A DNA stretch of 33,121 bases from contig JAPOWL010000513.1 of the NCBI GenBank assembly GCA_026707615.1, positions 1 through 33,121 on the forward strand, given 5' to 3'. Shown here piece by piece: positions 1,827 to 32,845 of the stretch (position 1 is its first letter; each line of letters begins with the position of its first letter). Below the pieces are notes generated by a model. That model had not been told where the DNA came from, ran no database searches, and saw only the letters and a program-made list of their open reading frames with translations. The position numbers and the translations under genes were made by a program. Source of the DNA: Acidobacteriota bacterium. Lineage in GTDB: Bacteria > Acidobacteriota > Vicinamibacteria > Vicinamibacterales > UBA8438.

Positions 1827-2891
1827 CTAGCGTCTCTCCAGCAGCACCACCCAGCGATCGTGCCCCTCGCGCTCGCTGTCGCCCACCACGACCGCCACGA
1901 GCGAACCGTCCGCCGAGACGTCGCGCGTCGGCCGTGGCGTCGGGAACGTCCCAACCAGGGCCGAGCCGCCCGGATCGGAGACGTCCACGACCGAGACGCC
2001 GGCCTCGTTGTCGGCCACGAACACCTCGTCGCCGTTCATCGAGACCCGCGTCGCGCGGCCCGGTGTCGCGACGCTGGCCACCTTCTCCGGCGCCGCGGGG
2101 TCGGACACGTCGTACACCTGGACGTCGCCGCCGCCCGCGCCGACGATGAGCGTCGGCCGCTCGGCCGTGCCGGGCGACACGTCGATGTCGCGCGGGGCGT
2201 TCGGCGCATGGAGAACCCCCACCGGCTCCGGCATCCCGGACCGCGCCAGATCGAAGACGTACAGGCCGGACGGCGAATCGGTCGCGAAGGCCAGCGTGCC
2301 GTCGGTGACGACGTCGCGCGCGTAGCCGTCGAGGAAGAACGAGCCGATGCCGGCCGGCGCCGTCTCGTCGGAGATGTCGACCAGCACGAAGCCTTCCATG
2401 TGATCGATGATCCCGACCTTGCCGCTGGCCGTCGCCCCGATCTTCGCCTGCCCGAGCGTCTTGTGCTGGCCGAGAAGCACCGGGCCGCCGGGACCGGAGA
2501 TGTCGAGGATGCCCAGACCGAAGAAGTTGGCGCCGACGTAGGCGCGGTCGCCGGTCAGACGGAAGCCCCAGATCTCCTGCGGGAAGGTGTGCGACCCGAG
2601 CGCGACGGGGCTGGCCGGATCGGAGACGTCTTAGATGGTGAACACGTGCCCGCCCGAGACGTAGGCCCGGGCGCCCCGCACGCGGACCAGCTCCGCCGGC
2701 CCGGGGATCTCCCCCACCGCCTCCAGCGCAAGGTCCTGTGCCGAACCCGGCGCGGGCACCAGGGCAAGGCCGAGCAGGGCCGCAAGAGCGCACGACGCCG
2801 CCCCGCTCGTCGTTCGAGCGCGTGCGTGCCGCCCCAGCCTCGCCCGCAGGTCGGCGAGCGCGCCCGCCAGGAAATCCATCGAGAGCGTCAC
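1827..2891 (-). pseudogene. LVIVD-repeat beta-propeller protein with an in-frame TAA stop
   Basis: The full frame spans about 354 codons. GTG at 2891 is chosen as the start: GGGAGG lies six bases upstream, and the GTG overlaps the TGA of the upstream PQQ-propeller gene as GTGA. A signal peptide follows (SCALAALLGLALVPAPGSAQ). The remainder shows recurrent blades of the LVIVD type, such as GILDISGPGGPVLLG, GFVLVDISDETAP, VQVYDVSDPAAPEKV and VSVVDVSDPGGSALVG. These proteins are extracytoplasmic propellers of unknown ligand. Codon 87 is TAA (2631-2633) in the context FTI-stop-DVSDP, where the family repeat normally has YDVSDP. A single TAC-to-TAA change therefore explains it and the frame is otherwise undamaged. 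It could be a recent nonsense mutation or a sequencing error. Confidence 0.75.
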
Positions 2892-4330
2892 TGGGCGCCT
2901 CCCTTCGCGATGCGGTAGAGCTTCGACTGCGTCCGGATGAAGAGACTGCCGCGGGCGATGGCCGGGGTGGCCAGCGTCATCTCGTCGAGCTGGTTCTTGT
3001 GGAGGATCCGGAACTCCGGCCCGGCCTCGACCACGTAGGTTTCCCCGTCCTCGCTCAGCAGGAACAGCTTGCCGTTGTAGGCCCAGGGCGACGCGGTGAA
3101 GCCATTGCCGATCTCCAGGCGCCGGCGCCCGTAGATCTCCTCTCCGGTCCGCGCGTCGTGGGCCACGAGGAAGCCGCGGTCGAGCAGCGTGTAGTAGGTG
3201 TCGCCGTAGACGATCGCCGTCGTGTTGTACGTGCCGAGCAGCGGGTAGGACCAGGCGATGTCGTCCGACGACGTCAGGGGCCCCGGGAAGCCCGACCGGA
3301 TGCCGCTCCGCATCTGCTCCTCGGTGAAGATGGAGATGTCGCCCGACGCGCCCGGCCGGACCGCGTACACGGGACGCAGCCCGCCGCCCGGATAGCCCGA
3401 GCTGATGTAGACGAGACCGTGGCTCGTGAACGGCGTCGGGATGGTCAGGCCCGACATCCCGTGGAGCTCCCAGAGGAGCTCGCCGTCGAGATCGTACGAC
3501 CGGACCCCCTGCGTGCCGGCCGTCACCAGCTCCGTGCGCAGATCGTGCTCCCAGACGAACGGCGTCGACCAGTTCTGGCCCCGCTCGTCGCGCTCGACCT
3601 GCCAGATCTCGTGGCCCGTGTCCTTGTCGTAGGCGGCCACGAACGAGCGCGTCGTGTTGTCGTTGACGATGTAGACGCGGTCGCCGTGCACGATGGGCGA
3701 CGCCCCCGTGCCCATCTCCAGCGTCGTGTTGTAGGCGTCGAGCTCGGTGAACCAGACGGCCTCGCCGCTCATGTTGAAGGCGGCGAGCTGTCCGATGGCA
3801 CCGAAGTAGACGTAGACGCGGCGGCCGTCGGTGACCGGAGTCTCCGAGGCGAAGGTGTTCTTGAGGTGCCGCTTCCCCGGCGGGATCGCCCGATGGAGCT
3901 CCCGCGCCCAGCGGATCTGCCCGGTGTGGAAGTCGCGGTCGTAGAGCACCCAGCGGTGCTGGTTCGACGTGGCCTCCGAGCCGTTCTCCATCCCCGGGTC
4001 GTAGAGCCCCTTGATCGGGTCGGGCTCGTCGCCGGTGCTGATCGCCGTCGTGACGAAGACATGATCGCCGGCAATCACCGGCGAGCTCCAGGCGAGGCCG
4101 GGGATGTCGGTCTTCCAGACGACGTTCTCGGTCTCGCTCCAGACCTCGGGCAGGTTCGGATCGTCCGGGACCACGCCCGCCGCCGGCCCGCGGAACTGCA
4201 GCCAGTCGTCCTGTCCGGCCGACGCCGGCCGGGCGGCAGCACCCGCGACGACGCCGACGGCCAGGATGCCGACCGCCCATGGCGCGGCCACCCGCGGCGC
4301 GCTCCGGATCGCCCTCATCACTCGACGCAT
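2888..4330 (-). CDS. Exported PQQ-like beta-propeller protein (paralogue 1)
   Basis: The product has 480 residues if the ATG at 4330 is used; a second ATG at 4318 is also possible, and a GGGGGAGG purine run precedes both. The signal peptide runs to about residue 39 (VGVVAGAAARPASA). The mature part begins DDWLQFRGP, the usual opening of these eight-bladed quinoprotein-like propellers. Blade motifs include IPGLAWSSPVIAGDHVFV, FASETPVTDGRRVYVYFG, AAYDKDTGHEIWQVERDE and FTASPWAYNGKLFLLSED. It has close paralogues at 8789-10144 and 30067-31419, with shared motifs such as YAVRPGASGDI and LLDRGFL. No PQQ-ligand set characteristic of true dehydrogenases is evident, so catalytic activity is uncertain. 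It is translationally coupled to the LVIVD gene downstream by a 4-base overlap and is divergent from the SGNH fusion gene. Confidence 0.85.
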   Translation of the reverse strand: MRRVMRAIRSAPRVAAPWAVGILAVGVVAGAAARPASAGQDDWLQFRGPAAGVVPDDPNLPEVWSETENVVWKTDIPGLAWSSPVIAGDHVFVTTAISTGDEPDPIKGLYDPGMENGSEATSNQHRWVLYDRDFHTGQIRWARELHRAIPPGKRHLKNTFASETPVTDGRRVYVYFGAIGQLAAFNMSGEAVWFTELDAYNTTLEMGTGASPIVHGDRVYIVNDNTTRSFVAAYDKDTGHEIWQVERDERGQNWSTPFVWEHDLRTELVTAGTQGVRSYDLDGELLWELHGMSGLTIPTPFTSHGLVYISSGYPGGGLRPVYAVRPGASGDISIFTEEQMRSGIRSGFPGPLTSSDDIAWSYPLLGTYNTTAIVYGDTYYTLLDRGFLVAHDARTGEEIYGRRRLEIGNGFTASPWAYNGKLFLLSEDGETYVVEAGPEFRILHKNQLDEMTLATPAIARGSLFIRTQSKLYRIAKGGAQ

Positions 4331-4471
4331 GCGCCTCCCCCATTCCTCCGCGGACAGTCCGTGTTTCGCGAGCTCGCTCGACAGCGGCGCGACCGGCCCG
4401 ACCGCCCACCGTCGCGGATTGGCGTTCCGGGCCGGGTCCGTCACGCACACACTGCACGGTTCGCGAATCGC

Positions 4472-17545: not shown

Positions 17546-17577
17546 CCGCAGCCTCGTCCGGACGCGTGGCGGCTGGC

Positions 17578-17583
17578 TATAAT
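17578..17583 (+). promoter_or_regulatory. Consensus -10 hexamer (TATAAT) before the PQQ dehydrogenase
   Basis: This is a perfect TATAAT in a GC-rich context, 30 bases ahead of the ATG at 17608 and followed by AGGAGG at 17597-17602. No good -35 is found at 16-18 bases. Its presence suggests the dehydrogenase can be transcribed separately from the SMP-30-type gene. Confidence 0.45.
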
Positions 17584-17607
17584 CCGTCCACGTCTCAGGA
17601 GGTCCGC

Positions 17608-19317
17608 ATGATGCCGCGCCCGCTCGCCAGCGTCGTTGCCTGCACCGTCGTCCCGCTCGTGCTCCTCGCCGCCGCACCGGCAGGAGCGCAGGACGAATCG
17701 TTCACGCCGGTCACCGACGCGGTCCTGCAGGACCCCGACCCGGCAGACTGGCTGAGCTGGCGGCGCACGCTCGACGGCTGGGGCTACAGCCCGCTGGACG
17801 AGATCGACAGCGGCAACGTGGGCGAGCTGCGGCTGGCGTGGTCGTGGGGTCTCGAGGCGGGCGTGTCGCAGACGACGCCGGTCGTCTACGACGGCGTCAT
17901 GTACATCGCCAACCCCGGCAACGTCGTGCAGGCCCTCGACGCCGCGACGGGCGACTTCATCTGGGAGTACCGCCGCGACATGGAGGAGCGGCGGCGCCCC
18001 GCGGCGCAGTTGCGCAGCCTCGCCATCTACGAGGACCTCATCATCCTGAACACCGTCGACGCGCACATCGTCGGCCTCGACGCCCGCACCGGCGAGGTGC
18101 GCTGGGACACCGACGTCGCGCCCGATCACGACGGCTACGGCTTCTCGAGCGGGCCCGTGATCGCCGACGGGACGGTAGTGGCGGGGCTCCGCGGCTGCGA
18201 GCGCTTCCGTGACGACACCTGCTACATCGTCGGCGTCGACGGGCGGACGGGACGCCTGGTGTGGCGCACCTCGACCATCGCGCGGCCGGGCGAGCGCGGC
18301 GGCGACACCTGGGGCGACCTGCCGCTCCTGTTCCGGGCCGGCAGCGACGCCTGGATCCCCGGCAGCTACGACCCCGTCAACCGCCTCGTCTACTACGGCA
18401 CGGCGCAGGCCAAGCCGTGGTCGCGGGACGCGCGGGGGACGGACGGCGACGCCCTCTACAGCAACTCGACGCTGGCGCTCGATCCGGCCACCGGCGAGAT
18501 GCGCTGGTTCTTCCAGCACATCCCCGGCGACAGCCACGACATGGACGAGACGTTCGAGCGCATCCTCATCGACTACGACGGCAAGCAGTCGGTGTTCAGC
18601 ATGGGCAAGCTGGCCATCCTGTGGGAGCTCGACCGCGCGACCGGCGCGTTCGTCAACGCCGTGGACCTCGGCTACCAGAACCTGGCCGACGTCGACACGG
18701 AGACCGGCGAGTTCACCTACCGCGAGGGAATGGTGTCGGGCGTCGGCGAGGAGCTCTTCTTCTGCCCCAGCACGGGCGGCTTCAAGAGCCTGCGGGCCAT
18801 GTCCTACCACCCGGACACCGGCGCCCTCTACGTCCCGCTCAACCTGCAGTGCGAGACCGCGGCCTTCGGGCCGGTCGAGCGCCGGCCGGGCGGCGGCGGG
18901 ACCGGCGGCGTCCGCGGGCGCCTGAACCACTTCCACCCCGACGCCCCGGACGTGCTCGGGGAGTTCCAGGCCCTCGACATCCGCACGGGCGAAACCCTCT
19001 GGAAGCACCGCCGCCGCGCGCCCTACAACACGGCGGCCTTGGCCACAGCGGGCGGCCTCGTCTTCATCGGCGACTGGGAGCGCCATGTCTTCGCCTACGA
19101 CGCGGCGAGCGGCGAGCAGCTCTGGCAGAGCCGCCTGACGACGATGGCGAACGGCTACCCCATCACCTACGCGGTCGACGGCAAGCAGTACATCGCCTTC
19201 GGCGCCGGCGGCCCGCTCGGCGGCTCGAGCTGGACCAGCATCATCCCCGCCGACCTGATCCCGGAGATGCGCAACCCCCGGTCGGGCAACGCCGTCTTCG
19301 TCTTCGCGCTGCCTTGA
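17608..19317 (+). CDS. PQQ-dependent alcohol/sugar dehydrogenase
   Basis: The product has 569 residues. AGGAGG at 17597-17602 supports the ATG at 17608, and the signal peptide ends PAGAQ near residue 28. It is a quinoprotein dehydrogenase of the methanol/ethanol dehydrogenase superfamily. N-terminal DWLSWRRTLDGWGYSPLDEI is followed by tryptophan-docking blades such as LDAATGDFIWEY, LDARTGEVRW, VDGRTGRLVW, LDPATGEMRW and LDIRTGETLW. DSHDMDE (309-315) lies where the catalytic Asp is expected, giving a D-x-D pair (Asp311, Asp313). Cys197 and Cys205 are near each other, but there is no adjacent Cys-Cys. There is no fused haem domain, so electrons would pass to a separate cytochrome such as the one at 1271. 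It probably works with the upstream lactonase-type protein. Confidence 0.85.
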   Translation: MMPRPLASVVACTVVPLVLLAAAPAGAQDESFTPVTDAVLQDPDPADWLSWRRTLDGWGYSPLDEIDSGNVGELRLAWSWGLEAGVSQTTPVVYDGVMYIANPGNVVQALDAATGDFIWEYRRDMEERRRPAAQLRSLAIYEDLIILNTVDAHIVGLDARTGEVRWDTDVAPDHDGYGFSSGPVIADGTVVAGLRGCERFRDDTCYIVGVDGRTGRLVWRTSTIARPGERGGDTWGDLPLLFRAGSDAWIPGSYDPVNRLVYYGTAQAKPWSRDARGTDGDALYSNSTLALDPATGEMRWFFQHIPGDSHDMDETFERILIDYDGKQSVFSMGKLAILWELDRATGAFVNAVDLGYQNLADVDTETGEFTYREGMVSGVGEELFFCPSTGGFKSLRAMSYHPDTGALYVPLNLQCETAAFGPVERRPGGGGTGGVRGRLNHFHPDAPDVLGEFQALDIRTGETLWKHRRRAPYNTAALATAGGLVFIGDWERHVFAYDAASGEQLWQSRLTTMANGYPITYAVDGKQYIAFGAGGPLGGSSWTSIIPADLIPEMRNPRSGNAVFVFALP

Positions 19318-23678: not shown

Positions 23679-24065
23679 TCACGTGGAGGGCACCGCCGCC
23701 AGTGCGTGTGCCAAGCTGCTCACCAACTGCGCGTCCGCATCGTCCGGCCTCCAATCGGGAATCAGCACGTCGACGGGCGCACGATTGCCGAGGGCAGCCC
23801 GCGGCCGAATGAACCAGCGACGGATGCCGGCGTCGTTGTAGGCGCCGCCCAAGTCATCGACCATCAGCGCGAGCGCGTGCAGGCGGGCAGCGACGTCGAC
23901 CGGGATCCTCCGGGCGCCGGACGAATACCCGCGCACGCTGACGGCGGGCACTCTCAGCAGGCGAGCGAGCACGTCGGCGCCGAGCACGCGCTGCATCGCC
24001 CGCCATTCCGTGGCGGTGGCCGGCGACAGCGCGCATCTGGGTTCCTCTCGTTGAAAGTCCACCAT
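23679..24065 (-). CDS. Xre/MbcA/ParS-like antitoxin-type DNA-binding protein
   Basis: The product has 128 residues. Residues about 24-66 look like a helix-turn-helix (LGADVLARLLRVPAVSVRGY). The C-terminal half matches the MbcA/ParS toxin-binding region: DDLGGAYNDAGIRRWFIRPR, then ALGNRAPVDVLIPDW. Proteins of this type usually partner a RES-domain toxin (MbcT/ParT) encoded next to them. No RES-like frame is seen on either side, so this copy is an orphan or has a different partner. It lies 101 bases downstream of the three-gene NTPase operon on the same strand and could be its regulator or last member. The ATG at 24065 lacks a strong ribosome site. Confidence 0.65.
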   Translation of the reverse strand: MVDFQREEPRCALSPATATEWRAMQRVLGADVLARLLRVPAVSVRGYSSGARRIPVDVAARLHALALMVDDLGGAYNDAGIRRWFIRPRAALGNRAPVDVLIPDWRPDDADAQLVSSLAHALAAVPST

Positions 24066-24166: not shown

Positions 24167-25618
24167 TCATCGAATCGGCTTGACGCCGCCCTTTCGACCC
24201 AGACCGTAGCCGACCCGGTAGACGTCAGGAATGTTGACGCGTCCGTCCCGCATGCGGAAAAAGATGCCCAGGGATTCCAACGCTTCCCGAACGCCGTCCG
24301 CGCCCCGGTCGATACGGCGGGGCGGCAGCTTGACCTGATCTGCCTCCTCGACCAGCCGGTCCACCACCCGGGCGCTACGCCAGCGCTTCGCGATCTCCTC
24401 GAACCCGCACGGCACGACCATCCGCTCGAGCGAACCCATGGCCCGATGTACCCAGGGGTAGTCTTCCTGCACCTCCTGCACACGTATCCGCGATGCAGAC
24501 TGGACGCCCCGCTTGATGCCCTCGTAATGCAGTGCCGCCTTCCACTCCGGATATCGCTCCGAAGTATCCTCCGCCGCTGCCCTGAGGGCCGCCAGGAACG
24601 ATCGCGGGCTCACTCGTCCTTCGCTGTCCCCCAGGTGGTTCGGGATCCAGGTGTACGGGAAGCCGCGCCTGTGGTCCGTTCCCATCCATTCGCCGGCGAT
24701 CTTGTGGAATCTACCGCGTTGCAGTCCCCCGTCGCGAATCAGTGTCCTCGGCACCCACACTACGGAGCGTCCGTCTACCGGGGCGGCCGGCCAGTCCCCG
24801 GGCTGCAGGAACTCCCGAAAACTGCCACCGTCCGGCCCGTTCGCCAGCCGGTGCCACAGCAACCCGTACAGCTCGCGCCGCGGCCAGCTCAGTTCCACCA
24901 TCGACGACAGGACCTTCGACGCGTCCGGAAAGTCACCGACGTCAGCTTCGTTGAACTGGTCGGACCGCAGAAACACCTTCACCCGGAGGCGCCGGTAGGA
25001 CCGCATCTCCAGCGCGGTCTGCACCAACCCTCGAATCGCCCGGTACATCGCCTTCCAGTCATCGGCACTGCGATCCAGAGCGTCGAACAGAATGAGGAAA
25101 TAGACTCCCTGGCGATCGCACTCGGTATCCCGATCCACGAACAGTCGGTCGATAGCCTCCGGCTCGTCATCCACGTAGTCCACGCGCTTCGACCACGAAC
25201 CGCGCGCGCGTAGCGGATGATCGTCAGGCGCCATCTGCCAGGCCTGGACCGTCCGCCAGATCGTTCTCGGCTCGGCTCCCGCCCCCATCAGGCTTCGCAG
25301 GACGTCCTTGCCGGGGTACTGATCCGGCGCGGGCCTGACCCCGAACCCGATGCGGACCTGGGCTCCCTGGCTCCACTCCAACGTCGGGTCTTGGCGGCCC
25401 AGCAGCCCGCGCACGGCCTCGTCCTGCAGGGCACTCCACCAGAACGTCTTGCCCGCCCCCCGCATGCCGGTGACCAGGGAGCTGTTCGGATCCAGCGCCC
25501 TGAGATGGGAGCGCGGAAGGTATACGTGTTCAGGCGACGGGTCGTCACCGTGATGCGCCCCCTCCGGGAGAGCGCAGAACGCTGCGCGTGCTGCTTCGGC
25601 AGTGATGTCGCCTGTCAT
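24167..25618 (-). CDS. P-loop NTPase, third gene of the KGGVGR operon
   Basis: The product has 483 residues. The start is ATG 25618, which overlaps the upstream TGA as ATGA. Walker A is GMRGAGKT (51-58). A Walker B strand, LILFDALDR (175-183), ends in Asp179, and RLRVKVFLRSDQFN forms a following strand with a sensor-like Arg. The pattern FDALDR plus a later strand ending in Arg recalls STAND/KAP-type NTPases. No nuclease, protease or membrane segment is visible. The C-terminal third is mixed charged helix with a winged-helix-like end (ALESLGIFFRMRDGRVNIPD). It is presumably activated together with the MinD-like ATPase encoded just upstream. I do not recognise a characterised homologue. Confidence 0.78.
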   Translation of the reverse strand: MTGDITAEAARAAFCALPEGAHHGDDPSPEHVYLPRSHLRALDPNSSLVTGMRGAGKTFWWSALQDEAVRGLLGRQDPTLEWSQGAQVRIGFGVRPAPDQYPGKDVLRSLMGAGAEPRTIWRTVQAWQMAPDDHPLRARGSWSKRVDYVDDEPEAIDRLFVDRDTECDRQGVYFLILFDALDRSADDWKAMYRAIRGLVQTALEMRSYRRLRVKVFLRSDQFNEADVGDFPDASKVLSSMVELSWPRRELYGLLWHRLANGPDGGSFREFLQPGDWPAAPVDGRSVVWVPRTLIRDGGLQRGRFHKIAGEWMGTDHRRGFPYTWIPNHLGDSEGRVSPRSFLAALRAAAEDTSERYPEWKAALHYEGIKRGVQSASRIRVQEVQEDYPWVHRAMGSLERMVVPCGFEEIAKRWRSARVVDRLVEEADQVKLPPRRIDRGADGVREALESLGIFFRMRDGRVNIPDVYRVGYGLGRKGGVKPIR

Positions 25619-26901
25619 CGCCCGACTCCCCCGCCGCCGATGACCGTGTCGAACCGCATCAGGAAACCCGCATAGGCAGGGGCGACGGCCGCTTCCTCGC
25701 TGGGAAGGTCGCGCAGCGAGGCTCCCGCGGCCAGACCACGATTCCATAGTATGGGGACAGGGTGATGGGGAGCCTCGTCGTCATGCAGGTCGAACGAGTA
25801 TGCATCGCCCGCATCTTCGGCCGGAGGCACCTCGTCGTACACCGACCGAAAGAGGTCCCACGACCGTTCGCGGAACCCTTGCAGGTAACGTGCCGTGTCT
25901 CTTTCGGGAGTCAACGCGGATACGATCGACAGCCGCTCCCGGATCTCGGTCGCCAGACCGTAGCGCTCCCAGTGTCGGAAGAGAACGTCGTAGTCGGTCC
26001 ACGTGCTGTCGGAATCTGTGGCGAACAGAAGGACGTGAGCATCGAGGTCGGTCACCGTGGCCGCGGCGATGTCGTGCAATCCGCTGCGGCTTTCCATGAT
26101 GATCGCCGTCGGCCTGTGGTTCACCTCCAGTCGAGACAGCAGGCATTCCAGCCGTGCAGACCAGGTGTCACCGGTACTCATGTACACACGACCCAGCTTG
26201 GCCAGGTACTCGCCGGGGTCTCGGCCGTGCGCAGGCACGACACGGACGTCGCCCTCCAGATCGCGCGCCCACGCGGGCGCCGCGGTCATCTCTCCTATCA
26301 CGTACTCGCCTTGCCCGACGAGGTCCTCCACGAACCAATCGGTGACGCCAAACGAAGGAGACGCAGCTGCCTCCAGCATCGCCGACGACAGTCCCGGCGA
26401 CTCCAGGTCCAGATCGACCACGAGTACACGCTGGCCGCTGGACGCGAGATGCCACGCCAGCACGGCCGCGGTCGTGCTGCGCCCCACGCCGCCCTTGACG
26501 GAGAACAGCGTGTAACGACGCGCTCCAGTGGCCGCATGCGGCTTCCCGACCCTCCACCAATCGCCGCCCGTCACAAGGCGCTCTACCAGATAGACGCCGC
26601 GACGGACTTCGCGCGCGGTCTCGCGGGTGTTCCCTAGCAGTGAGGGCGTCACGAACAGGACGCCACCGTCGGCAGCGCCATGTGCACCCAGCACGCTGCG
26701 CAGGTGAGTGGCTAGACGGTCGAGTGCCTCCCGGGACGACACATCGGCTTCCACTTCCTCCGACACCGCGACCCGCACCTGGCCATGGAGATTCCGCACG
26801 AGGTAGATGGGCTCAGCCCTCTCCGGGATTGCTCCTGCCGACGCGACCGCGTCGACGACGCGCGCCCAGATTGCGTCGAAAGCGACGAACTCCGGTATCA
26901 C
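25615..26901 (-). CDS. MinD/ParA-like ATPase with variant KGGVGR P-loop
   Basis: The product has 428 residues. The start is GTG 26901, overlapping the TGA of the upstream gene as GTGA. Residues 1-125 form an alpha/beta domain of unknown type. A deviant Walker A motif then reads FSVKGGVGRST (133-143). The MinD/ParA signature lysine is kept (Lys136), but the P-loop lysine is arginine (Arg141). VLVVDLDLESPGL (159-171) and IIMESRSGLHDIA (267-279) are the switch/Walker B strands of the family. I recall NCBI naming such proteins KGGVGR-motif variant AAA ATPases. The Arg substitution may slow hydrolysis and favour a switch-like nucleotide state. The gene sits in the middle of three genes all joined by 4-base overlaps, so equal expression is expected. 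A role in plasmid partition is unlikely, with no ParB or centromere repeats seen. Confidence 0.83.
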   Translation of the reverse strand: MIPEFVAFDAIWARVVDAVASAGAIPERAEPIYLVRNLHGQVRVAVSEEVEADVSSREALDRLATHLRSVLGAHGAADGGVLFVTPSLLGNTRETAREVRRGVYLVERLVTGGDWWRVGKPHAATGARRYTLFSVKGGVGRSTTAAVLAWHLASSGQRVLVVDLDLESPGLSSAMLEAAASPSFGVTDWFVEDLVGQGEYVIGEMTAAPAWARDLEGDVRVVPAHGRDPGEYLAKLGRVYMSTGDTWSARLECLLSRLEVNHRPTAIIMESRSGLHDIAAATVTDLDAHVLLFATDSDSTWTDYDVLFRHWERYGLATEIRERLSIVSALTPERDTARYLQGFRERSWDLFRSVYDEVPPAEDAGDAYSFDLHDDEAPHHPVPILWNRGLAAGASLRDLPSEEAAVAPAYAGFLMRFDTVIGGGGVGR

Positions 26902-27320
26902 GCTCTCCGCTCCTCGGCCAGGCTCTGCACCATGGTTCGAACCGCCCGCGCCGCTTCCGCGTGCCGTTGGACACCCTCCTGCTTGAAGTGCCGCCGATGC
27001 GCGTAGCGGTCATGATGCGACCAGTCCGCGAACGGCTCGCCCTCCGGAAGCAATCTCAGATACCGCTGGCCACCGCGACCGGCAGCGAAGGCCGCGAACG
27101 CCTGCCATATGCGCGGGACGTGCTCCTGGTGTTCACGCTCTACGGGCTTGCCGGTTTCGTCGACCGGCATTCCGAGGCACTGCATCACCGCCTTCAGGCC
27201 GCACTCCGCGCTGAAACCGTACAACTGGTCGGCGTTCGCCCAGCGCTCCTCCACGACCATAAGCTGGGCATCCTCCCAACAGCGATGATGTGCGTCGACG
27301 AAATCGGCCGGATGCGGCAT
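26898..27320 (-). CDS. HEPN-like helical protein, first gene of the KGGVGR operon
   Basis: The product has 140 residues from ATG 27320. A TTG-initiated form from 27425 is possible but adds an unconvincing tail. The sequence is all-helical in character: RCWEDAQLMVVEERWANADQ, LYGFSAECGLKAVMQCLGMP, then HVPRIWQAFAAFAAGRGGQ. An Arg-His motif follows, DRYAHRRHF (104-112), with R105 and H111 giving an R-x5-H spacing. HEPN RNases use an R-x4-6-H motif and often start with a similar ANADxLYxxAAECxLKA helix, so a HEPN-type fold is plausible. It could be the effector RNase, or a sensor subunit, of the operon. There is no signal peptide. The family is not recognised by name. Confidence 0.65.
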   Translation of the reverse strand: MPHPADFVDAHHRCWEDAQLMVVEERWANADQLYGFSAECGLKAVMQCLGMPVDETGKPVEREHQEHVPRIWQAFAAFAAGRGGQRYLRLLPEGEPFADWSHHDRYAHRRHFKQEGVQRHAEAARAVRTMVQSLAEERRA

Positions 27321-29305: not shown

Positions 29306-29893
29306 ATGAAGCGGATAAAGCCCGCCCTCGACAGCCCGGCCGCTCTTGCGCTCGCCCTGCTCTGCCTTGTCCCGCTTGCGATCGGCTCGCCCGCCGCCCA
29401 GTCCGACGACGACGCGATCGCCACCGCTTTGATGGCGGCGCCGCCGGCCCTGGCCGGCAGCGCGATGGTCATCCGGCTGGACGACGCCGGCGAGTACGAG
29501 GTTCTCCGCGAGGGCGACAACGATCTCGTCTGCTGGGACCGTTCCGACCAGCCGAACATGTCGTTCAGCGTGCAGTGCACGAGCGTCGGCAACCTCCCCC
29601 GCATCCAGCAGAACCGCGCCTGGGCGATGTCCGGCCAGAGCGCCGAGGAGATCCGCGGGCTGCAGGATGCCGCCGAGGCGGACGGCACCCGCGAGGTGTC
29701 GGTCTACGGCAGCATGTACTACACCGTGGCAGGAGCCGACGCCGACTCCGCCGCCCTGCACATGACGATCGCCGTTCCGTTCGCCACCGGCGAGTCCCTC
29801 GGCCTTCCGGAAGAGGGAAGCTACACGCGCGCCGGCACCTGGGTCATGCAGGCCGGAACGTCGGCGGCGCACATCATGTTGCCGGGTCGCTAG
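29306..29893 (+). CDS. Small secreted protein of unknown function
   Basis: The product has 195 residues. The ATG at 29306 follows GGAGG (29294-29298) with a 7-base spacer. The signal peptide spans about 10-31 (LALALLCLVPLAIGSPAAQ). The mature part carries AIATALMAAPPALAGSAMVI, a charged strand (YEVLREGDNDLVCWD), two cysteines (76 and 91) that may pair, and ends AGTSAAHIMLPGR. I recall related secreted proteins of about 190-200 residues ending in a similar (Y/A)AHIM-P motif, usually annotated as hypothetical. No enzymatic motif is visible. It is followed by a strong hairpin, so it is probably monocistronic or attenuated from the propeller gene at 30067. Confidence 0.75.
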   Translation: MKRIKPALDSPAALALALLCLVPLAIGSPAAQSDDDAIATALMAAPPALAGSAMVIRLDDAGEYEVLREGDNDLVCWDRSDQPNMSFSVQCTSVGNLPRIQQNRAWAMSGQSAEEIRGLQDAAEADGTREVSVYGSMYYTVAGADADSAALHMTIAVPFATGESLGLPEEGSYTRAGTWVMQAGTSAAHIMLPGR

Positions 29894-29936
29894 AATCCGT
29901 CGTGGCGGCGGCCGTTGGCCCGCGCCATCCGCGACG

Positions 29937-29973
29937 ACGCCGCCCGATCGCCCGCCCGGCGATCGGGCGGCGT
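29937..29973 (+). terminator. 16-bp perfect hairpin between the small secreted protein and the next propeller
   Basis: ACGCCGCCCGATCGCC (29937-29952) and GGCGATCGGGCGGCGT (29958-29973) are perfectly complementary with a 5-base loop, 44 bases after the stop at 29893. It is the longest perfect stem I found in the window. No T-run follows, as for the other hairpins here. Confidence 0.6.
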
Positions 29974-30066
29974 GCGCTTGCAGCCGGCCTCGCCGCGGGT
30001 GACGCCCGCCCGCAGGCGCCGCCTCACCCGACTCCAACTTGCGCAGGCTCTGACGGAGGTAACCAG

Positions 30067-31419
30067 ATGAAGCGGATCGCACTCGTTCCAGGGCTCGTGG
30101 CGCTCGCCTCCGCCGTGGCTCTGGCGCAGCCGGCCGGCGACGGCGACAACTGGCCGCACTTCCGCGGCCCCACCATGAACGCCGCCGTCGCCGACAACCC
30201 GAACCTGCCCGAGACCTGGAGCCAGACCGAGAACGTCGAGTGGGTGACGGACATCCCCGGCCTGGGCTGGTCTAGTCCCGTCGTCTGGGGCAACAAGGTG
30301 TTCCTGACCACGGTGACCGCGATCGGCGACTTCGAGCAGCCGAAGCCCGGCCTCTACGCGCCGCGCGGGCGTCCGGATCCTCCGCCGATCGACCACGACT
30401 GGCTGGTCTACTGCCTCGACCTGGAGACGGGCGACATCCTGTGGCAGCGTTCGGTCGCCGAAGGGGTGCCATCGTTCCCGCGGCACCAGAAGAGCACCTA
30501 CGCGTCCGAGACCCCGACGACGGACGGCGAGCACGTCTACGTCCGCTTCGGCGACCTTGGCACCTACGCGTTCGACATGGACGGCAACGAGGTCTGGAGC
30601 GCCCTGACGCCGTATCGGCGCACGCGGTCCGAATGGGGCTCGGCCTCCTCCCCCGTCGTCCACGGCGACATGCTAATCGTCGTCTACGACAACGAGGAGG
30701 AGTCGTGGATCGCCGCGCTCGACAAGCGGACCGGCGAGGAGCTCTGGCGCCGGTCCCGCGACGAGGGCTCCACCTGGGCCACGCCCTTCGTCTGGGAGAA
30801 CGACCTGCGCACCGAGATCGTGACCTCGGGCGTGAGGCGCATCCGCTCCTACGACCTCGACGGCAACCTGCTGTGGGAGATGGACGGGCGGATGTCCTGG
30901 GCCGCGATCCCGACGCCGTTCGCCGCCCACGGCCGGGTCTACGTCAACTCCGGCTACTTCGGCGACAACCACCGCCCGGCCTACGCGATCCAGCCCGGCG
31001 CGAGCGGCGACATCACGCTCGCCGACGGGGCGTCGTCAAACGACTACGTCGCCTGGTACCAGCCGCGGGCCGGCAACTACAACACGTCGCCGCTGATCTA
31101 CGGCGACGTCTACTACAGCCTGCTCGACCGCGGCTTCTTCGAGGCCTACGACGCGCTGACCGGCGAGCCGGTCTACCCGCGCCGGCGGATCCGGGTGGGG
31201 GCCAGCTTCACCTCGTCGCCGTGGGCCTACAACGGCAAGGTCTTCGCGCTCAGTGAGCAGGGCGACACCTACGTCATCCGGGCCGGCCCGGACTACGAGG
31301 TCCTCGGCGTCAACCGCCTCGACGAAATGGCCATGGCCTCGCCGGCCGTCGTCGGCGACCGGCTGCTGATCCGGACGGCCACCAGGCTGTACAGCATCCG
31401 GAAGACGGCCACGGACTGA
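30067..31419 (+). CDS. Exported PQQ-like beta-propeller protein (paralogue 3)
   Basis: The product has 450 residues. The ATG at 30067 follows GGAGGT (30055-30060) with six bases between. The signal peptide ends near residue 20 (LASAVALAQ). The mature start is NWPHFRGPTM. Shared motifs with paralogues 1 and 2 include NLPETWSQTENVEW, IPGLGWSSPVVWG, YASETPTTDG, FVWENDLRTEIVTSG and SLLDRGFFEAYDALTGEP. It differs at several places: YAVRPGASGDI is YAIQPGASGDI, and the blade around 50-110 has a longer Pro-rich loop (APRGRPDPPPIDHDW). It is probably a periplasmic quinoprotein-like propeller; the cofactor is uncertain. The next propeller gene starts 16 bases after its stop, so the two probably form an operon. 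Confidence 0.85.
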   Translation: MKRIALVPGLVALASAVALAQPAGDGDNWPHFRGPTMNAAVADNPNLPETWSQTENVEWVTDIPGLGWSSPVVWGNKVFLTTVTAIGDFEQPKPGLYAPRGRPDPPPIDHDWLVYCLDLETGDILWQRSVAEGVPSFPRHQKSTYASETPTTDGEHVYVRFGDLGTYAFDMDGNEVWSALTPYRRTRSEWGSASSPVVHGDMLIVVYDNEEESWIAALDKRTGEELWRRSRDEGSTWATPFVWENDLRTEIVTSGVRRIRSYDLDGNLLWEMDGRMSWAAIPTPFAAHGRVYVNSGYFGDNHRPAYAIQPGASGDITLADGASSNDYVAWYQPRAGNYNTSPLIYGDVYYSLLDRGFFEAYDALTGEPVYPRRRIRVGASFTSSPWAYNGKVFALSEQGDTYVIRAGPDYEVLGVNRLDEMAMASPAVVGDRLLIRTATRLYSIRKTATD

Positions 31420-31435
31420 ACGCGGAACGAACGGA

Positions 31436-32845
31436 GTGACGGTCATCTCGCGGCGGGCGTTGCTCGGCGGCCTGCTGGCCCCGGCAGCGCTCGCCGCCCC
31501 CGCGCGTGCGCAGGCGGAGGCGGGCGAGATTCTCCTGCACGGCGCGCCCCGGCCGCTCGCCGGCGACGCGGTCACGCACGACTGGCCCTACTTCCTCGGA
31601 CCCACCCACGACGCCGTCTCGACCGAGACCCGGCTCAGCCGCACGCTCCCGCCTCCGCTTCTCTGGGAGCTCGCCAAGGGAAGCGGTTACGCCTCCCCAG
31701 CCATAGTCGGCGACCGGCTGGTCTTCATGCACCGTATCGGCGGGCACGAGATCGTCGACTGCCTGCACCCGGAGACGGGCGCCCGGCAGTGGACCTTCCG
31801 CTACCCGAGCGCCTACGAGGACCGCTACGGCTACAACAACGGCCCCCGCTCGAGTCCGGTCATCGATCCGGCCCGAGGGCTCGTGTACACGATGGGCGCC
31901 GAGGCGGTCCTCCACTGCCTGGCGCTCGCATCGGGCGCCGTCGTCTGGCGGCGTGACCTGCGCCGCGACTACGGCGTGCGGCAGGACTTCTTCGGCGTCT
32001 CGGCGACGCCCCTGATCGAGGGCGACCTGCTGATCGTCAATGCGGGCGCTCCCGACGGCGGTTGCGTCATCGCCTTCGACGCCGCCGGCGGCCGCGAGGT
32101 GTGGCGGGCCGGCACCTGGGGACCGAGCTATGCCTCACCAGTTCCCGGCGTCGTGCACGGGGCCCGGCGCGTATTCGTGTTCGCGGGGGGCGAGTCGAGC
32201 CCGCCGAGCGGCGGACTGCTCTCCATCAATCCGGCGAACGGGGCGGTCGACTTCGAGTTCCCCTTCCGCAGCCGCACCTACGAGTCGGTCAACGCCTCCT
32301 GCCCGGTGGTGTTCGACGACCGGGTGTTCGTCTCCGCCAGCTACCGCACCGGGGGCGCGCTCGTCGCGGTGCAGCCGGACTTCACGCACGAAGTGGTCTG
32401 GACGACACGGGAGTTCGCGCTCCACTACAACACCGCCATCCACCGCGACGGCCACCTCTACGGCTTCGACGGGCGGAACATGGGCGACTCGTCGCTGGCG
32501 TGCGTCGACGCGGCCAGCGGGCAGGTGGTCTGGCGCGCGGCGCCGACGTGGACCGAGACGTTCGAGATCGGCGGGCGCCGCGGCCAGCAGATCCTGGGCA
32601 CGGCCCGCGGCTCGCTGCTGGCCGCGGACGGGCAGTTCCTCTGCCTCGGCGAGCTCGGCCACCTGCTGTGGATGGACCTGACGCCGCGCGGCTACCGCGA
32701 GATCTCCCGGGCGTGGCTCTTCGCGGCCCGCGAGTCGTGGGCGCTCCCCGTGCTCAGCCGCGGCCTGCTCTACGTCGTGCAGAACGCCCGCGACCTCATC
32801 CGGGGAACGCCGCCGCGGCTGCTCTGCTACGACCTCCGCGCGTGA
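31436..32845 (+). CDS. Exported PQQ-like/BamB-like beta-propeller with twin-arginine-like signal
   Basis: The product has 469 residues from GTG 31436, 16 bases after the previous stop. The N-terminus VISRRALLGGLLAPAALAAP has an Arg-Arg before the hydrophobic stretch, resembling a Tat signal. The mature part starts DWPYFLGPTHDAVSTETRLS, similar to the openings of the other propellers but otherwise distinct. Blades include CLHPETGARQW, CLALASGAVVWRRD, AFDAAGGREVWRAG and CVDAASGQVVWRA. It lacks the YAVRPGASGDI and SPWAYNGK signatures of paralogues 1-3 and so belongs to a separate subfamily. It is convergent with the last gene, only three bases between stops. The catalytic role is unknown; it may be a partner of paralogue 3. 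Confidence 0.82.
   Translation: MTVISRRALLGGLLAPAALAAPARAQAEAGEILLHGAPRPLAGDAVTHDWPYFLGPTHDAVSTETRLSRTLPPPLLWELAKGSGYASPAIVGDRLVFMHRIGGHEIVDCLHPETGARQWTFRYPSAYEDRYGYNNGPRSSPVIDPARGLVYTMGAEAVLHCLALASGAVVWRRDLRRDYGVRQDFFGVSATPLIEGDLLIVNAGAPDGGCVIAFDAAGGREVWRAGTWGPSYASPVPGVVHGARRVFVFAGGESSPPSGGLLSINPANGAVDFEFPFRSRTYESVNASCPVVFDDRVFVSASYRTGGALVAVQPDFTHEVVWTTREFALHYNTAIHRDGHLYGFDGRNMGDSSLACVDAASGQVVWRAAPTWTETFEIGGRRGQQILGTARGSLLAADGQFLCLGELGHLLWMDLTPRGYREISRAWLFAARESWALPVLSRGLLYVVQNARDLIRGTPPRLLCYDLRA

Follow-up and report, generated by a model that had tools for sequence, protein, structure and literature searches.

Phage defence candidates of the PADLOC collection were identified because they sit within other immune systems, and the majority await experimental validation, as passages of PMC12988326 report. 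Here we consider a block of three overlapping genes, CDS1, CDS2 and CDS3 (A, B and C when the gene families are meant), that lies in a 33,121-nucleotide stretch from an Acidobacteriota bacterium (contig JAPOWL010000513.1; this whole stretch is called the window). All three proteins matched the models of one such candidate, PDC-M28 (Table 1), and the three genes are adjacent; no difference from PDC-M28 was found, PADLOC's own system rule not having been seen. The original prediction for this DNA had held that the trio could not be matched to a named system, and this no longer stands. The trio is already catalogued as an untested defence candidate, and is best taken as a lead, not as a discovery. 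A literature search found no paper naming PDC-M28; a description is possible in the preprint of Payne et al. 2024, which passages of PMC12988326 cite as the source of the candidates.

Further described systems are close to the trio. In passages of Anantharaman et al. 2013 (PMC3710099), HEPN proteins of the AbiV and AF0298 (2hsb) type are said to lack typically the H of the Rx4-6H motif while the basic residue is retained, and a strongly conserved H, N-terminal to that residue, could form an alternative site; the Ex3[KR] motif is found in many HEPN families. The same source deals with PrrC-PrrI, a HEPN RNase guarded by a restriction system. A HEPN back-up effector tied to DNA-modification defence would be common to PrrC-PrrI and the trio, but PrrC is a single protein with both an ABC NTPase and a HEPN part and acts together with type Ic restriction-modification, whereas here three genes and other ATPases are involved. 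Standalone HEPN modules in BREX loci are mentioned in passages of a BREX survey (PMC12839542), the main text of which has neither "MinD" nor "three-gene". Passages of PMC8195603 describe HEPN effectors with inactive STAND proteins, and the present trio is not described in them. A search of the literature with the letters KGGVGR gave a sole match, which concerns mushroom lectins.

Our preferred reading is that the trio is a mobile three-component anti-phage system (PDC-M28), which would serve as back-up abortive infection with a HEPN effector gated by two ATPases, and we put the probability of this outline at roughly 0.5. That the trio is a defence of some kind is considerably more probable.

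Three genes inherited as one unit

The coordinates of the trio and of its two stop-start overlaps, as originally predicted, were borne out by the sequence, with all genes on the minus strand. The motifs FSVKGGVGRST, GMRGAGKT, LILFDALDR and DRYAHRRHF had been correctly read, and the residue numbers R105/H111, Arg141 and Lys57 are right. Homologues are found in several phyla and the ratio of nonsynonymous to synonymous substitution (dN/dS) was 0.19-0.28 in four comparisons (CDS1 0.28 and CDS2 0.21 against the locus L003; CDS2 0.19 and CDS3 0.21 against L005), and the trio is therefore coding DNA and not a set of chance frames; the comparison of CDS1 with L006 was saturated and gave no ratio. Mechanically called frames open further upstream for CDS1 (TTG, 27425) and for CDS3 (25747), and the starts given in Table 1 are favoured because the start of relatives lies near them. 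The G+C content of the trio is 66.2% vs. 71.4% for the remainder of the window and 474 overlapping stretches of equal length taken from that remainder all have more (68.9% at the lowest), so that the block, as had been judged by eye, is less GC-rich than its flanks. A pattern scan limited to the sigma-70-like type showed no such promoter at the trio, and terminator-like sites there were no more numerous than in shuffles.

Relatives, which carry locus labels of the form L###, were all collected via B or C and none via A, and 61 loci were kept, 17 on viral contigs, 12 on plasmids and 32 others. Before the count 25 loci were dropped, 18 as repeats, near-identical copies or fragments of kept places; the other seven, genuine places with an incomplete trio, were L034 (C only), L051, L054, L055, L057 and L058 (B-like only, several of them weak) and L002, a weak ParA in the window's own genome. 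The near-identical pairs window/L003 and L016/L017 were kept, and the broken L009 stands outside the residue counts. Gene calls in the relatives are mechanical, and metagenome-assembled genomes are among the sources of the relatives.

A, B and C were all present in 54 of the 61 loci. They share one strand in every case, and the gene order is kept in 53, with a break only in the damaged L009. Divergence was correlated between the three proteins, with coefficients for pairwise distances of 0.76 (A-B), 0.76 (A-C) and 0.88 (B-C) and none of 2000 permutations as high; 44 of the 54 complete loci entered this analysis, since fused, broken, cut and near-identical ones were omitted. The trio is one inherited unit, as had been proposed.

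In seven loci B and C are joined in a single open frame. The loci without A differ among themselves: L101 is a C-phosphoesterase-NACHT protein alone, L023 is C alone and L108 is a B-C fusion, while an A-like open reading frame (ORF) is visible by eye in L047, and L049 starts at the end of its stretch and is cut. In L090 (5373-7909) a gene for Abi_alpha (PF14337) lies at the usual place of A and B; behind it B is left as a weak trace, and C is intact. L111 (5748-8914) has a frame of Schlafen AlbA_2 and another that is RecG-C-like upstream of B-C, and PglZ downstream, which is a possible effector swap. Ten loci were re-examined in six frames. A was broken with B and C open in L007, L092 and L105, which are all three of the loci with a single damaged gene, A and C were both broken in L107 and L009, and a whole A with a broken B or C was seen in none. 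This hints at a pattern that would fit a costly effector.

Predicted folds and conserved residues

The original prediction of a HEPN-like first protein was borne out in the AlphaFold model of CDS1. The first seven rows of a Foldseek search with this model were HEPN structures (probability 0.51-1.00, E 0.13 to 1.2); five of the seven titles carry HEPN, and 1ufb, another of the rows, is presumably HEPN as well. A further row, 2q00, is listed as HEPN in passages of PMC3710099. The top of the VIA list agrees on HEPN, with 1ufb at Z 13.0 (root-mean-square deviation, rmsd, 2.6; 116 residues aligned), 2hsb at Z 12.3 (3.5; 123) and sacsin 3o10 at Z 12.3 (2.9; 119) ahead of Csm6 (Z 9.4), HEPN-MNT (9.0) and AbiV (7.4), values that may be partly generic. 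CDS1 is thus predicted to have the HEPN fold. By sequence, CDS1 had no Pfam or NCBIfam match and no solved structure was found; of 15 relatives, five touch HEPN_AbiV and three touch PF05168 (E up to 0.1), the window protein being in neither.

The conserved residues follow the layout described for the AbiV and AF0298 type, with H67, R105, E39 and K43 in nearly all aligned rows (Table 1). The two rows without R105-Y106 are the broken copies L007 and L092, which lack that part of the row, and W100 is found in 49 of 54 rows. E39, K43, H67, R105 and Y106 are invariant across 19 CDS1 sequences, although identity to the window falls as low as 12%. The R-x5-H motif of the original prediction is present as letters, DRYAHRRHF, but finds no support as a conserved or catalytic HEPN site: H111 is found in just 7 of 54 aligned rows, and of the 52 rows with R105, 8 (the window included) have an H at +5 to +7 behind it, so that R105-x5-H111 is ruled out by conservation as the catalytic motif of the family. 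The displaced histidine H67 may act as the catalytic His of an alternative site. The predicted fold, the retained R, the missing H of Rx4-6H, the conserved N-terminal H and Ex3K are common to CDS1 and the AbiV/AF0298 type (HEPN-T, PF05168), and AF0298 (2hsb) is among the closest fold matches; the sequence similarity is marginal, and CDS1 differs in being tied to two ATPases.

CDS2 passed the curated cut-off (90 bits) of NF047398, the NCBIfam family of KGGVGR-motif variant AAA ATPases, yet the match spans residues 128-312 alone, and for the residues before 128 there was no Pfam or NCBIfam match. The protein carries ParA-like motifs, and the Lys of the classical ParA/MinD P-loop (KGGxxK[ST]) is replaced by Arg in all 58 loci with a B protein, in agreement with the proposed variant of MinD/ParA. 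In P-loops generally, a change of Lys to Arg slows hydrolysis.

For CDS3, the sole exception to the Walker A pattern is the fused L106, and a crude Walker B pattern was found in C in 48 of 61 loci. Foldseek with the predicted model gave, at probability 1.00 and E 9.6e-6 to 1.8e-4, archaeal ORC2, Cdc6 and BrxC, the ATPase of BREX, and VIA gave STAND proteins including CED-4 and plant NLRs at Z of about 12-14 (up to 14.0) and an rmsd of about 6. The model of CDS3 thus resembles ORC/Cdc6-STAND AAA+ ATPases and BrxC, with the match to the ORC/Cdc6-STAND fold extending over the ATPase core and the C-terminal region. This likeness is one of predicted fold, as nothing better than E 0.09 was obtained against solved structures by sequence. 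BrxC belongs to BREX and is the larger protein, CDS3 being compact. The P-loop ATPase Sll1717 family (NF047389) was rejected for CDS3, with 63.7 bits against a cut-off of 75.

C runs into a calcineurin-like phosphoesterase and a NACHT domain in five of 20 regions from the Pseudomonadota sample (Pfam was run on L093, L101 and L098; L094 and L104 have the same sequence by eye). The fusion proteins with a C-terminal region are NLR-like, with the ORC/STAND module at the N-terminus. In L098 (10802-5478) the C-terminal part contains a long low-complexity run of ARDWARDLARYW-like repeats, and similar shorter runs are seen in L093 and L104.

Table 1. Coordinates of the trio, its motifs and the fused relatives (window positions unless a locus is named)
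Feature	Positions	Strand	Evidence
CDS1 (A), 140 amino acids, HEPN-fold, proposed effector	26898..27320	-	PADLOC PDC-M28A 1.5e-46 (6.9e-47 with the 140-amino-acid form); AlphaFold predicted local distance difference test (pLDDT) 95.8 (19 sequences); nearest solved folds HEPN
CDS2 (B), 428 amino acids, GTG start, ParA/MinD-like ATPase, KGGVGR variant	25615..26901	-	NF047398 164.5 bits; PDC-M28B 2.1e-132
CDS3 (C), 483 amino acids, ORC/Cdc6-STAND-type AAA+ ATPase (predicted)	24167..25618	-	PDC-M28C 1.5e-173; pLDDT 90.3 (18 sequences); Foldseek ORC2, Cdc6, BrxC
CDS1/CDS2 stop-start overlap GTGA	26898..26901	-	read from sequence
CDS2/CDS3 stop-start overlap ATGA	25615..25618	-	read from sequence
CDS1 E39-x3-K43 motif	27192..27206	-	E39 52/54 and K43 52/54 aligned rows; Ex3[KR] is a published HEPN feature (passages of PMC3710099)
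CDS1 H67, candidate catalytic His, N-terminal to the R motif	27120..27122	-	54/54 aligned rows
CDS1 R105-Y106	27003..27008	-	52/54 aligned rows
CDS2 P-loop KGGVGR (K136-R141), Lys to Arg	26479..26496	-	KGGxGR in 58/58 loci with B protein
CDS3 Walker A GMRGAGKT (G51-T58)	25445..25468	-	G-x-[RPKQ]-G-x-G-K-[ST] in 60/61 loci with C
C-phosphoesterase-NACHT fusions	L093:9607-14979, L094:9157-13143, L098:10802-5478, L101:10219-5942, L104:7515-12590		CDS3 homologue in front

Genomic setting and spread

Some relatives lie in or beside known defence genes, in line with the proposed defence context. In L015, L018 and L021 the trio sits among BREX-2 genes, PglZ follows B-C in L111, a DrmD-like helicase abuts B-C in L108 and genes like IetS and DrmA flank L008. 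L109 is preceded by a DUF1156 methyltransferase, a HmaC-like gene adjoins L025 and a TIR gene follows L016, so that BREX-2, DISARM-, Hma- and methyltransferase-type genes are all represented. Since the PADLOC candidates were found by such embedding, this context is not fully independent of the PDC-M28 label. The scan covered 67 of 251 candidate ORFs, at 37 of 55 loci, the near ORFs being picked by hand; 25 of 102 PADLOC families were listed and some named neighbours (e.g. PtuA and mad3) were not traced to a locus. Among ten neighbours scanned singly, four had no match.

The trio is thinly spread. Seven loci came from species genomes that bear the labels Acidobacteria, Bryobacterales, Vicinamibacterales, Latescibacteria and Pseudomonadales. 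With the starting genomes counted, four of 297 sampled genomes of the window's phylum had a match, as did 19 of 398 from the phylum to which the Pseudomonadales genome belongs and 2 of 64 (both already known) from that of a Latescibacteria genome. Tistrella mobilis also has a trio (L014). CDS3 relatives lie on 21 of 72,556 plasmid records, including Streptomyces, Burkholderia, Enterobacter and Calothrix, and on viral contigs the profile of CDS3 matched 10 loci and that of CDS2 matched 23, in overlapping sets with several weak CDS2 matches. The CDS3 sequence alone found none on viral contigs, CDS3 was in none of 50,697 phage records, and the Enterobacter trio as query found none in E. coli genomes. 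Integrases adjoin L016, L017, L019 and L024. A spread so thin over several phyla is in keeping with horizontal transfer.

The close relative L003/L112 has the block in collinear arrangement, with 82-96% identity overall and 93-96% for the trio region. L005 (2606-5680) shares the chromosomal site of the window trio (24167-27320), with flanks 91% and 94% identical and CDS2-CDS3 76% identical, and the cassette has therefore been replaced or is faster-evolving at that site. This site appears as a variable slot. In the genome G774 the same flank gene and an Xre-like gene lie about 970 bases apart with another gene between them and no trio, an observation limited to this site. In L009, of genome G303, the trio has decayed.

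Next to the trio, at 23679-24065 of the window, an orphan protein weakly resembles the C-terminal domain of Xre/MbcA/ParS antitoxins (a match at E 8e-4 that misses the cut-off), and this gene was matched at the same place in L005, the sole other trio examined for it. Its role as a fourth member is doubted because G774 has the gene without the trio beside it. Genes of the PglX, PglZ and BrxC type were absent from those window flank ORFs that were scanned with Pfam, a part of the total, with PADLOC run on one flanking protein. Several PQQ or beta-propeller frames lie elsewhere in the window, at 2888-4450, 17566-19317, 29575-31419 and 31436-32845.

Proposed mechanism and its alternatives

The defence activity of the trio, the formation of a complex, the RNase activity, the direction of control and the trigger are steps that we infer in the following model. 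CDS2 and CDS3 would form an ATP-dependent sensor and switch. The part of CDS3, as an ORC/STAND-type AAA+ protein, is probably to recognise nucleic acid or an invader complex, and the Lys-to-Arg change in CDS2 probably shifts the balance from rapid turnover towards ATP binding. Both would come from the single overlapping operon that also encodes CDS1, and in a complex they would keep CDS1 inactive. On infection, or on failure of a neighbouring BREX- or DISARM-type system where one is present, the nucleotide state would change and CDS1 would be freed to cut RNA, with H67 and R105-Y106 as a HEPN site of non-canonical type and E39/K43 in support, and the cell would be halted. We regard this as the best reading because it covers the B-C fusion, the missing or replaced A, the conserved polar residues of A and the embedding in DNA-modification defence. 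We saw neither a trio that is not conserved, nor a CDS1 that is not HEPN, nor a match to a known housekeeping complex, outcomes which the original prediction had named as speaking against it.

Several points weigh against such a gated HEPN effector. With a best value of E 0.13, the Foldseek matches of CDS1 all fall short of E 0.001, VIA scores of helical bundles are high for general reasons, and the TM-scores of the first seven Foldseek rows for CDS3 are low (0.29-0.38 by query length). The canonical Rx4-6H is not conserved, and CDS1 may for this reason be non-catalytic; the chances that it is the catalytic effector appear evenly balanced. A was not found in seven of the 61 loci (L023, L047, L049, L090, L101, L108 and L111), and when the seven dropped partial places are added the complete unit stands at 54 of 68. 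The pattern of damaged A is a mere hint, since it was noted post hoc, the loci were gathered via B or C and assemblies may err. A named defence gene stands beside at least nine of 37 loci (ten with the Abi_alpha of L090) and most have none that could be named, a count made with no control set scanned, and the window's own flanks are metabolic by Pfam.

Of the other explanations, the one that fares best, though we think it rather unlikely, is a defence accessory without RNase activity. CDS1 would then be a dead HEPN that binds nucleic acid or nucleotide, and the effector would be an ATP-driven CDS2-CDS3 assembly acting on DNA, which helps to keep out phage or plasmid DNA or serves BREX or DISARM. 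The lost Rx4-6H and the close fold match of CDS1 to the sacsin HEPN argue for this, as do the likeness of CDS3 to BrxC and ORC and the B-C pairs without A directly beside the DrmD-like helicase (L108) and PglZ (L111), but the five invariant residues of CDS1 go beyond the needs of a scaffold, and A is present in most loci.

The integrases, plasmids and viral contigs that accompany the relatives bring to mind a toxin-antitoxin or addiction module of mobile elements, with CDS1 as toxin, CDS2 and CDS3 as controllers and maintenance of the element as the main role. This is less likely still, as the trio is inserted inside BREX-2 operons and adjoins DISARM-type genes and two large ATPases would be an unusual antitoxin; it is also compatible with a role in defence. 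A ParA-type partition or other housekeeping machine, which the ParA-like motifs of CDS2 could suggest, is very improbable given the patchy presence, the Arg in all 58 P-loops and the other gene in place of the trio at the one site examined in G774.

If the preferred reading of a HEPN effector gated by two ATPases is carried further, the trio could tentatively be a distinct immune machine, in which a ParA-type switch with the Lys-to-Arg change and an ATPase of the ORC/STAND kind jointly gate a displaced-His HEPN RNase. Such a machine would be a fallback inserted in operons of BREX and DISARM, and phosphoesterase-NACHT (NLR-like) proteins would have taken up its ATPase arm as their N-terminal module, from which the signal would go on to another effector. 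For PDC-M28, the key residues H67, R105 and Y106 (not H111) and the likely regulator pair are now testable, and natural variants of the trio are at hand that lack the effector or have a different gene in its place. If true, HEPN toxins would be controllable by two unlike P-loop ATPases, and BREX-embedded modules would be linked with NLR-like proteins.

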